A stretch of DNA of 64,000 nucleotides, from positions 3,085,241-3,149,240 of the forward strand of contig NC_021487.1 in assembly GCF_000427095.1 (NCBI RefSeq), in the 5' to 3' direction. Both the position numbers and the translations under genes were made by a program. The notes under the pieces were generated by a model. The model made no database searches. It was not told the DNA's origin and saw only the letters and a list, made by a program, of their open reading frames with translations. This stretch comes from Chthonomonas calidirosea T49. Its GTDB lineage: Bacteria > Armatimonadota > Chthonomonadetes > Chthonomonadales > Chthonomonadaceae. This document shows positions 24,481-26,836 of this stretch, piece after piece. Within the stretch, counting starts at the first letter, position 1. Every line of letters begins with the position of its first letter.

Positions 24481-25482
24481 CTACTCAGCATGAAACGCCT
24501 GAAGGTAGCTATGTGTGCTGTCGCCATAGCAAACCCATACGGTGTGCGTGCGAGGGTCTACAGCGAGCGTGTGAGATCCGCGATGATCGGCTACGTTGCC
24601 AAGCAGCTTTAGACCGGTGCTTGTCTCTTGAAGCACCGCCAAATCGCCGTTGCCACAGGCGCAATAGAGCCGCTTCAGGCCGGCGTCGAACGCGATCTGG
24701 TCTACATAGTTGGAGCCGAAAGTGACAGAGGCGATGACCTTTCCTGTTTTTAAGTCTATGGCTGCGGCTTTCCCCTCACCCGCCACAAAAAGCCAGCCTC
24801 GCTTTGCATCTAGCGCCTGACCATGGGGCGACTCCACTGGGGCGGTAGACCAGGTGGCGACAACGGTGTTTGTGGATGGATCTATGACCTGCACCTCATT
24901 GGCCGTTTTAATGTTCTGGTAAAGGCGATGTGTTTTTGAGTCGTACTCGATGTACTCTGGGGCACCGGCGATAGCGATGTTACCGGTCACTTTCTGCTGA
25001 TCGACATCTACCGTCCATAGCTCAGTGCCGTCATCATGGGTTACGTAGAGCGTGCGATTATCCGGATCAAATTCGATATCGTCCGCGGGACCGGGAAGGG
25101 GTATTTCCCCGATCTTGTTCATCGTTCGGTAGTCGAAAATAACTACTTTTTGGTTGCCTCCTGCGGCGTAGAAACGATTCGCACGGTAGTCAATGGCGAT
25201 GCCATTGACCCTTCCGTCGGTGTCGTACTCGGTGATGTGATTGTCTTTGACGGAGAGCATGGTAAGGCGGCCAGCACCCGGATGGGACGCGTAGACACGG
25301 TTTCCCCGAGCGTCAAAGAGCATGTAGTCGAAGCCGCCTGAACTATTAGGGACTTCCATAGGAGGCTCTGCGACGAGCGGTGTCATGTCTTTGGCGATGG
25401 CGTGGAAACGTCCGAAAACCAGCCATGTGAGGCTTGCTCCCAAGATAGTCAGCCTACTGAGAGTGAGGTTACGTGGACGCAT
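24481..25482 (-). CDS. secreted YncE-like beta-propeller protein
   Basis: A 333-residue exported protein. The N-terminus has basic residues and a hydrophobic core (LTILGASLTWLVFG) ending near FHAIA-KD, a plausible signal peptide. The rest is a string of about 40-residue repeats of the YVTN/YncE type (for example YDTDGRVNGIAIDYRANRFY, ALDAKRGWLFVAGEG), forming a propeller. Such proteins are often redox-pathway or binding partners in the periplasm; nothing identifies a ligand. It stands downstream of the small lipoprotein and prepilin-like genes on the same strand, separated by 128 bases. Confidence 0.75.
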   Translation of the reverse strand: MRPRNLTLSRLTILGASLTWLVFGRFHAIAKDMTPLVAEPPMEVPNSSGGFDYMLFDARGNRVYASHPGAGRLTMLSVKDNHITEYDTDGRVNGIAIDYRANRFYAAGGNQKVVIFDYRTMNKIGEIPLPGPADDIEFDPDNRTLYVTHDDGTELWTVDVDQQKVTGNIAIAGAPEYIEYDSKTHRLYQNIKTANEVQVIDPSTNTVVATWSTAPVESPHGQALDAKRGWLFVAGEGKAAAIDLKTGKVIASVTFGSNYVDQIAFDAGLKRLYCACGNGDLAVLQETSTGLKLLGNVADHRGSHTLAVDPRTHTVWVCYGDSTHSYLQAFHAE

Positions 25483-25610: not shown

Positions 25611-25790
25611 TTATTTGTCTTTGTTTCGCTCGATAGTGGCTTGGCGACGTGCCGTCATGGTATTAAGGGTGCTGCTGCTCATTCCGGGGGTGGTGCGCAT
25701 CCCCTGCGGAACGTCGGCCGATCTGCCGCAACCGGCGCAGAGCAGAGCGGCTAACAGCACCAACGCCCACGCTTTGGTTTTCCATGTCAT
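25611..25790 (-). CDS. 59-residue lipoprotein
   Basis: Reads MTWKTKAWALVLLAALLCAGCGRS..., a basic start, a hydrophobic core and a lipobox-like CAGC (cysteine at 21; Cys at -3 is unusual), then a short polar chain rich in Ser/Thr/Arg. AGGGGA lies eight bases before the ATG. It starts 12 bases after the stop of the prepilin-like gene, so it should share that gene's Pho-box promoter. No family was recognised. A longer frame on the opposite strand covers the same bases but has no ribosome site. Confidence 0.7.
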   Translation of the reverse strand: MTWKTKAWALVLLAALLCAGCGRSADVPQGMRTTPGMSSSTLNTMTARRQATIERNKDK

Positions 25791-25802: not shown

Positions 25803-26708
25803 CTAAGGGTTAACCGTGGAATGGGAATAGAGGTCATCTACAGCTTGTGCGCAGGTCTCTCCGTCGCTTTGGAGGGGGTAGGATGGAAAGACAGGGGTAT
25901 TGCCGCCGATGGCGTAGTTTCCAACAGCATCGGGGCTATAGCAGAAGTCGAAAGCATCCTGCTTATTGGCTGGAAGGCCGACGAGACCATATCCGCTATA
26001 CTCTGCCGCTGTGAACTTAATGGGTTTGGCATGCCCGTCGGCAAAGCAGAAGCCTAGCATCTGCATATGGCGGATATTGCTGGTGCTGAACCCATCTGGT
26101 AAAGTGCTGAAGATATTGTCTGCGGTAATGGAGTAGGTAGGGGTATCGTAGGAGTCGCCAAAGACGGCCAGAGAAGCTGGGTTTGCAAACTCGGCGATCG
26201 CTCTGCCAGGGCGATAGGAGCTGCCAGGGTTGCCAGGGTCGGGCTGATCGGGTCCTACAACCCCATAACCGCCATCGCTTACCAATCCCTGATTGTAGCC
26301 GTAACCCAAGCAGACGTGTCTGGGATTTATACCGTCTTCACAGTAGGGCTTGCCATTTCGACGGAGAGGCCAGTCGGTTCGGTCGGGGCAGTAGAACATA
26401 TCTACGTTCTTGATGTAGGGCTGCAGGATGACATAGTAGTCCTGGATGATCAGCCCGTTTGGGTTTGTTGGCGTTTTGATGCCTCCAGGAAGTCTCACAT
26501 GCGAGACCATCGGCATGGTCTCATCGTAGTCTTGGGTGTACATAATCGTTGCAAGACCTATTTGGTGTAAGTTGCTGATACAGGTGATGGCGCGCGCCTT
26601 CTCGCGCGCCTGTGCGAAAACGGGGAACAGAATAGCTGCGAGTATCGCTATAATCGCGATGACAACAAGCAGCTCAATGAGGGTGAATCCACGAACGAGT
26701 CGTTTCAT
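25803..26708 (-). CDS. prepilin-like protein with DUF1559-type architecture
   Basis: Exported through the type IV pilin/type II secretion pathway. The 301-residue protein starts [18 protein letters not shown], where prepilin peptidase cuts after Gly and methylates Phe; the helix continues to [15 protein letters not shown]. The globular part has [23 protein letters not shown], a YCPDR motif after a [10 protein letters not shown] segment, and a late [11 protein letters not shown], the common layout of these large pseudopilin-like proteins in Armatimonadota and Planctomycetota. Their role is unknown. The frame extends 25 codons up, but the ATG at 26708 has AGGAGAAGAG before it. A four-repeat Pho box upstream suggests phosphate-starvation control. 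Confidence 0.85.
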
Positions 26709-26781: not shown

Positions 26782-26836
26782 ATTGTGCGACGCTGCAGGT
26801 TAAGTTCGTGTTAAATTGCTGTTAAGGGAATGTTAA
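26782..26836 (-). promoter_or_regulatory. Pho box and promoter of the prepilin-like gene
   Basis: On the minus strand TTAACA-N5-TTAACA-N5-TTAACA-N5-TTAACC (26836-26798) gives four direct repeats in exact 11-base register, the layout bound by two dimers of PhoB/PhoP-type response regulators. A -10-like CACAAT (26787-26782) follows the last repeat by about 10 bases, with no -35, as expected for an activator-dependent Pho promoter. Confidence 0.75.

Follow-up and report, generated by a model that had tools for sequence, protein, structure and literature searches.

The question raised by this locus is what a run of short repeats does upstream of a prepilin-like gene of Chthonomonas calidirosea T49 and what the genes behind it may be for. 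We analyzed a 64,000-nucleotide stretch (the window), which corresponds to positions 3085241 to 3149240 of a genome that consists of a single contig of 3,437,861 bases. A preliminary description had read TTAAC(A/C), repeated four times with an exact 11-base period, as a PhoP/PhoB-type binding site and had suggested that the genes behind it, for a pseudopilin-like protein and a 59-residue lipoprotein, are expressed in phosphate starvation. The operator, the promoter geometry, its conservation, its presence ahead of known phosphate genes, the gene unit and its neighbors were all computed, and the features are collected in Table 1.

Table 1. Features of the window and genes found behind Pho boxes in T49 and its relatives
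Feature	Coordinates or locus	Strand	Basis or genome
TTAAC copies	26836-26832, 26825-26821, 26814-26810, 26803-26799	-	Sequence reading
Pho box, direct repeats TTAACA/TTAACA/TTAACA/TTAACC, 11-base period	26799..26836	-	Pattern match
-10-like CACAAT	26782..26787	-	Pho box in -35 place; similar T/C-A-N-A-A-T element across 68 aligned sites
Prepilin-like protein, 301 aa	25803..26708	-	Prepilin cleavage motif, DUF1559/SBP_bac_10 N-terminal match, H-x9-DG
Small lipoprotein, 59 residues, lipobox LLCAGC	25611..25790	-	Sequence; weak match to positional counterpart L170:4868-5059
Secreted YncE/YVTN-type beta-propeller, 333 aa, third gene of unit	24481..25482	-	Propeller domain matches
YncE-phosphoesterase behind Pho-box prepilin	L014 (T49), L111, L134, L174, L322, L327
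Metallophosphatase or purple acid phosphatase behind Pho-box prepilin	L153 (T49), L057, L059, L068
Phytase behind Pho-box prepilin	L107
pstS behind box	L067, L077, L081, L117, L122		Relatives
pit and PhoU_div behind box	L073		Relative
phoU behind box	L087		Relative
PhoB-like regulator and kinase (phoB-phoR) behind box	L072		Relative
PhoX behind box	L135		Relative
Phytase behind box	L132		Relative
YncE-phosphoesterase behind box	L130		Relative
Phosphate-selective (Porin_O_P) or OprD porins behind box	L076, L119, L123		Relatives
MFS transporters behind box	L071, L136		Relatives

The repeats, the promoter and the genes behind them

Read 5' to 3', the minus strand shows cTTAACAttcccTTAACAgcaatTTAACAcgaacTTAACCtgcagcgtcgCACAATgatc, with four copies of TTAAC at an exact 11-base period (26836-26799), and the reading cTTAACAttcccTTAACAgcaatTTAACAcgaacTTAACCtgcagcgtcgCACAAT has the four TTAAC cores and the -10-like element. 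The repeats were recovered exactly as first described, and the CACAAT proposed as a -10 element was found at 26787-26782, 9 to 10 bases past the last repeat and without a -35 element. PhoB-type regulators use tandem 11-base units in the -35 place, about 10 bp from the -10 element (PMC1906773, PMC4415409), and the Pho box of SphR, the cyanobacterial PhoB, has at least three 8-mers near CTTAACCT with 3-base linkers (PMC1906773). A Pho box is expected to have at least two to three tandem direct repeats with an 11-base period, and the window has four; its 8-mers and 3-base linkers read CTTAACAT-tcc-CTTAACAG-caa-TTTAACAC-gaa-CTTAACCT, and the array lies about 10 bp ahead of CACAAT (10 bases from the last TTAACC and 9 from the last 8-mer). 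By its sequence, the window element is a four-repeat Pho box, the predicted operator for a PhoB-type regulator. It resembles the cyanobacterial SphR box in sequence, 11-base period and target class (pst genes and phosphatases), whereas it differs in having four near-perfect copies, in that the strongest sites of this genome are on pseudopilin-like genes, and in coming from a different phylum. The E. coli PhoB box consists of two repeats of 11 bases, located roughly 10 bp ahead of the -10 element (PMC1906773, PMC4415409); there, too, tandem 11-base units replace the -35 element at an equal distance to the -10, but the E. coli core is CTGTCAT and that of the window is TTAAC.

The mechanical open reading frame of the prepilin-like gene begins at 26783 and encodes 326 amino acids, and the frame from the ATG at 26708 encodes 301. 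The ATG at 26708, which is preceded by AAAGGAGAAGAG, is probably the true start, because the ATG at 26783 sits inside the -10/TSS region. The product carries the prepilin cleavage/N-methylation motif (PF07963, 34.7 bits with a cut-off of 21.2; TIGR02532, 32.4 with a cut-off of 16.3), a DUF1559 (PF07596) match of 35.3 bits (cut-off, 23.3) that is confined to the N-terminal positions 2 to 49 of 268, and a literal H-X9-DG (H214-x9-D224-G225) that is invariant across 11 homologues; despite this motif, the profile search reported no match to the TIGR04294 model. A structure model built with 49 sequences (pLDDT, 82.8; an earlier model was poor, with a pLDDT of 59.6) pairs an N-terminal helix of 51 residues with an alpha/beta head, and a PDB fold search with it matched only pilin helices, at E values of >0.8. 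Assignment of the protein as the GspG major pseudopilin was rejected, with 33 bits for TIGR01710 against an equivalog cut-off of 88.85.

Both genes named in the preliminary description are present behind the box, but a third member of the unit, the secreted YncE propeller at 24481-25482, had been overlooked. We took prepilin, lipoprotein and propeller as the unit because the locus of the nearest homologue of the window prepilin (L170; 69% identity; box score, 14/15) keeps that order and because the propellers of L170 and L171 are like that of the window. At L170, the box is followed by the prepilin, a 63-aa lipoprotein and the propeller, the last two genes overlapping by four bases. The window propeller is 42% identical to the L170 propeller and 45% identical to the L171 propeller, both of which stand behind Pho-box prepilins, and the window and L170 lipoproteins are alike only in kind (a weak match, with an E value of 4e-4 in a single comparison). 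The closest homologues come from Chthonomonadaceae and other Armatimonadota. A phytase or phosphoesterase identity was rejected for the window propeller, which has neither PF02333 nor PF04185 and gave propeller matches only.

Targets of the box in T49 and its relatives

The T49 genome was surveyed by pattern searches and in selected stretches. Only three four-repeat sites occur genome-wide, namely, the window site and those at 2566793-2566830 and 2723034-2723082, and the reversed-pattern control gave zero four-repeat matches. Each of the three lies upstream of a DUF1559-type prepilin-like gene. The genome has 55 such genes, so that the chance probability of three out of three is about 7e-6 (approximately 2,800 to 3,000 genes assumed). 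Additionally, a degenerate fourth site at 176533 lies upstream of another prepilin gene that is followed by a metallophosphatase gene, and a two-repeat site at 2416331 lies ahead of a fifth prepilin gene, the orthologues of which carry full boxes in three relatives. Counting that of the window, T49 has at least four Pho-box prepilins among about 55 paralogues. The pstS promoter of T49 reads TTAACA-N5-TTAATA, 10 bases ahead of TATAAT, and the spacer to the -10 element is 9 to 10 bases at the four certain T49 sites and at pstS. The expectation that the repeats would also stand ahead of phosphate genes in this genome was borne out at pstS, in a two-repeat form, and not at phoU; no clear Pho box was found upstream of either phoB or phoU.

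In the survey of relatives, 61 genomes were searched and 80 stretches were read, with 90 sites. In family f1 (17 genomes), the pattern gave 87 matches, compared with 6 for the reversed control. A same-strand gene start lies within 330 bases of 68 of the 90 sites, and 32 of these 68 genes encode prepilins, 29 of them outside T49. In the alignment of these 68 sites, a -10 consensus, T/C-A-N-A-A-T, appears at a near-fixed offset, 15 to 20 bases from the last TTAA. The three- to four-repeat form precedes pstS, pit, phoU, phoB-phoR, PhoX, phytase and Porin_O_P genes in relatives, which upholds the original reading of the repeats as a Pho box. In three relatives, the box is found ahead of a DinB-like gene and a gene for an isochorismatase-like hydrolase, both named by eye (L084:728-2031, L094:5048-6328 and L105:793-2073), which are not obviously phosphate genes. 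The pst operons have an apparent fused PstC-PstA permease of 640 to 691 aa (L013:8308-10383 in T49 and L067, L081, L117 and L123) and a small lipoprotein of BON-like sequence, the gene for which lies ahead of pstB in several genomes.

T49 has three full-length OmpR-type regulators, and PhoB is the best family only for L053:8946-9632, with 267 bits, below the curated equivalog cut-off of 296.2. The adjoining kinase is PnpS/PhoR-like, with a score of 369.9, below the curated equivalog cut-off of 400. We counted these scores against Pho control, along with the two-repeat form of the box at pstS and the lack of a clear box at phoB and phoU. Two other explanations of the repeats were weighed. They might be the target of some other regulator of the OmpR/PhoB family, one that responds to a different signal, since tandem repeats are bound by PhoB-family regulators generally and the genome offers three candidates. 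This is quite improbable, however: apart from the prepilins, the genes that the box precedes in relatives are classic phosphate genes, the motif is identical to the SphR box of cyanobacteria, 3-base linkers included (PMC1906773), and the single regulator with PhoB as its best family adjoins a PhoR-like kinase. The notion that the repeats are a chance run of functionless AT-rich sequence is scarcely credible. The core motif is short, and as many as 4 loose matches turn up in a shuffled window when 3 mismatches are tolerated, but the three-repeat pattern matches perfectly at a single place in the window (shuffled mean, 0.63, even when up to 3 mismatches are allowed), the observed TTAAC frequency predicts 3e-7 occurrences of four in-register TTAAC per whole genome, the reversed-pattern control is clean, and the box is kept upstream of orthologues in other genera. 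The window unit is thus very likely to be under Pho control.

Pho-box prepilins and their secreted partners

The window prepilin is 41 to 46% identical to pattern-selected prepilins of other genera (L080, L092, L057 and L116). The Pho-box prepilin of T49 locus L143 matches pattern-selected L121, L079 and L070, and that of L153 is 59 to 61% identical to L059 and L068, giving an overall range of 41 to 61% between the Pho-box prepilins of T49 and the pattern-selected relatives. The exception is L162, the prepilin of T49 locus L014, which has only distant matches to this set. Other prepilin paralogues of T49 had no comparable partner among the pattern-selected relatives. When homologues were picked by protein sequence alone, box scores of at least 12/15 were found in 9 of the 10 closest versus 5 of the next 62 (Fisher P, 2e-7). 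In a tree of 120 prepilins, 12 changes suffice to account for the box label, versus 31.5 after shuffling; this is a quick tree, in which near-copies inflate the contrast and the pattern-scan rows were chosen for having a box. The window prepilin groups with a subfamily that has Pho boxes in other genera, and the unit as a whole likely belongs, under PhoB control, to a phosphate-starvation regulon that has a distinct pseudopilin-like set among its members.

The preliminary description also overlooked the recurrent pairing of a Pho-box prepilin with a secreted phosphatase. Twice in T49 (L014 and L153) a secreted phosphatase gene lies directly behind a Pho-box prepilin gene, and the L014 enzyme has PF04185, unlike the window propeller. 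The six YncE-phosphoesterase genes with a prepilin upstream all have box scores of 12 to 14/15, and scores of at least 12 occur in 6 of the 32 others (Fisher P, 3e-4). A general tie between YncE-phosphoesterases and prepilins was rejected, as a prepilin is upstream in only 6 of the 38 genes of the family. Separately, a 444- to 445-aa secreted protein with no Pfam match is encoded directly behind a Pho-box prepilin in L090:2759-4096, L098:3064-4398 and L101:1625-2959 and is a candidate new phosphate-starvation exoprotein. A further YncE-type propeller gene of T49 (L054:6180-7915) lies directly ahead of genes for a CopR-like response regulator and a kinase.

Possible role of the pseudopilin-like proteins

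We infer PhoB binding, induction in phosphate starvation, processing by prepilin peptidase and a working role for the unit as follows. At low phosphate levels, phosphorylated PhoB (candidate, L053:8946-9632) would sit head to tail on the 11-base repeats, which substitute for a -35 element, and bring RNA polymerase to the -10 element at 26787-26782. This would switch on the three-gene unit for the pseudopilin-like protein, the small lipoprotein and the secreted YncE-type propeller. The prepilin would then be cut by prepilin peptidase and join a type II secretion/type IV pilus filament, where the pseudopilin may help to export or display its partner enzyme. The genome has two secretins and six secretion ATPase matches over the cut-off, including type IV pilus-like ATPases. 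We hold such a role in the export or display of phosphate-scavenging enzymes to be the likeliest one, although at somewhat less than an even chance. Counted against it were the lack of a phosphatase domain in the window propeller and of a PDB match for the prepilin head beyond the pilin helix.

Two alternatives keep Pho control and see the task of the pseudopilins otherwise, and we consider each of them rather doubtful. Instead of aiding secretion, the pseudopilin may build or decorate a surface filament that attaches, in starvation, to surfaces, minerals or phosphate compounds, with the lipoprotein and propeller as surface proteins in the same structure. Such a filament would fit a unit with a propeller and no phosphatase domain, the L015 locus, where the Pho-box prepilin has no same-strand gene behind it and only a convergent ClC-type gene, and the presence of type IV pilus-like ATPases and two secretins; it fits less well with the phosphatases directly behind Pho-box prepilins at many loci, twice in T49 itself, and with the window clade, whose conserved partners are secreted proteins too. 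In a stricter version of the export reading, Pho-box prepilins could be dedicated cargo-specific adaptors for the secretion machine, each co-inherited with its one enzyme. The metallophosphatase behind the orthologous prepilins of L153 (T49), L059 and L068 agrees with this, as do the propeller common to the window, L170 and L171 and the 444- to 445-aa protein common to L090, L098 and L101. However, several Pho-box prepilins stand alone, partners differ between clades, and most YncE-phosphoesterases have no prepilin.

For the export or display reading, the Hxc system of Pseudomonas is the best-known parallel, by analogy. In P. aeruginosa, Hxc exports the alkaline phosphatase LapA. The Hxc type II secretion system of Pseudomonas exports Psp/DING, which is made in phosphate starvation, and in SBW25 hxcR itself is not Pi regulated (PMC2225411). 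In both cases, type II secretion would serve phosphate-scavenging exoproteins of phosphate starvation, as proposed here; whereas Hxc is a whole second machine, T49 has single dispersed Pho-box pseudopilin-like genes, with the machine genes elsewhere.

Prepilin-like paralogues of the DUF1559/SBP_bac_10 (H-X9-DG) kind in Planctomycetes have no known function and have secreted or lipid-anchored neighbors (PMC8567305, PMC10632474, PMC2754498); some Planctomycetes have 68 to 100 DUF1559 prepilin-like proteins per genome. The T49 set is similar in its prepilin cleavage motif, its N-terminal DUF1559 match, its dozens of paralogues and the genes for secreted or lipid-anchored proteins that often lie alongside, but differs in that some of its members have a Pho box and are partnered with a phosphatase or a propeller. 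The Pho box and the DUF1559 paralogues are already known, and the Pho box on prepilin-like genes is apparently new: we found no report in the literature of phosphate control of DUF1559 prepilin-like genes and no published Pho regulon for Armatimonadota. It is conceivable, though we would not expect it, that the large DUF1559/H-X9-DG families supply one secretion machine with interchangeable pseudopilin adaptors, each specific to a cargo and coregulated with it, in which case the Pho-box set would be the module for phosphate starvation, with phosphatases, phytase and propeller proteins as its exports.

The conserved Pho operator and the phosphatase neighbors give a prepilin family of unknown role an inducing condition, a few genes to delete and an extracellular phosphatase readout. 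They also extend Pho-regulon analysis to Armatimonadota, a little-studied phylum, in a soil bacterium. At the four isolate sites of C. calidirosea, dissolved reactive phosphorus lay under the detection limit (PMC4959169), so the species would naturally meet phosphate starvation there.

Small partners were also seen more widely. Of the 30 prepilin-like genes of T49 in L140 to L169, at least 13 have behind them a gene that encodes either a tiny lipoprotein or a tiny protein with a single helix. The single-helix proteins begin like MKxxVNPxxA (L142, L144, L156, L165 and L168 and, in a relative, L061). Pairs of a prepilin and a small membrane partner look like a general module of two genes, in the Pho set and beyond.
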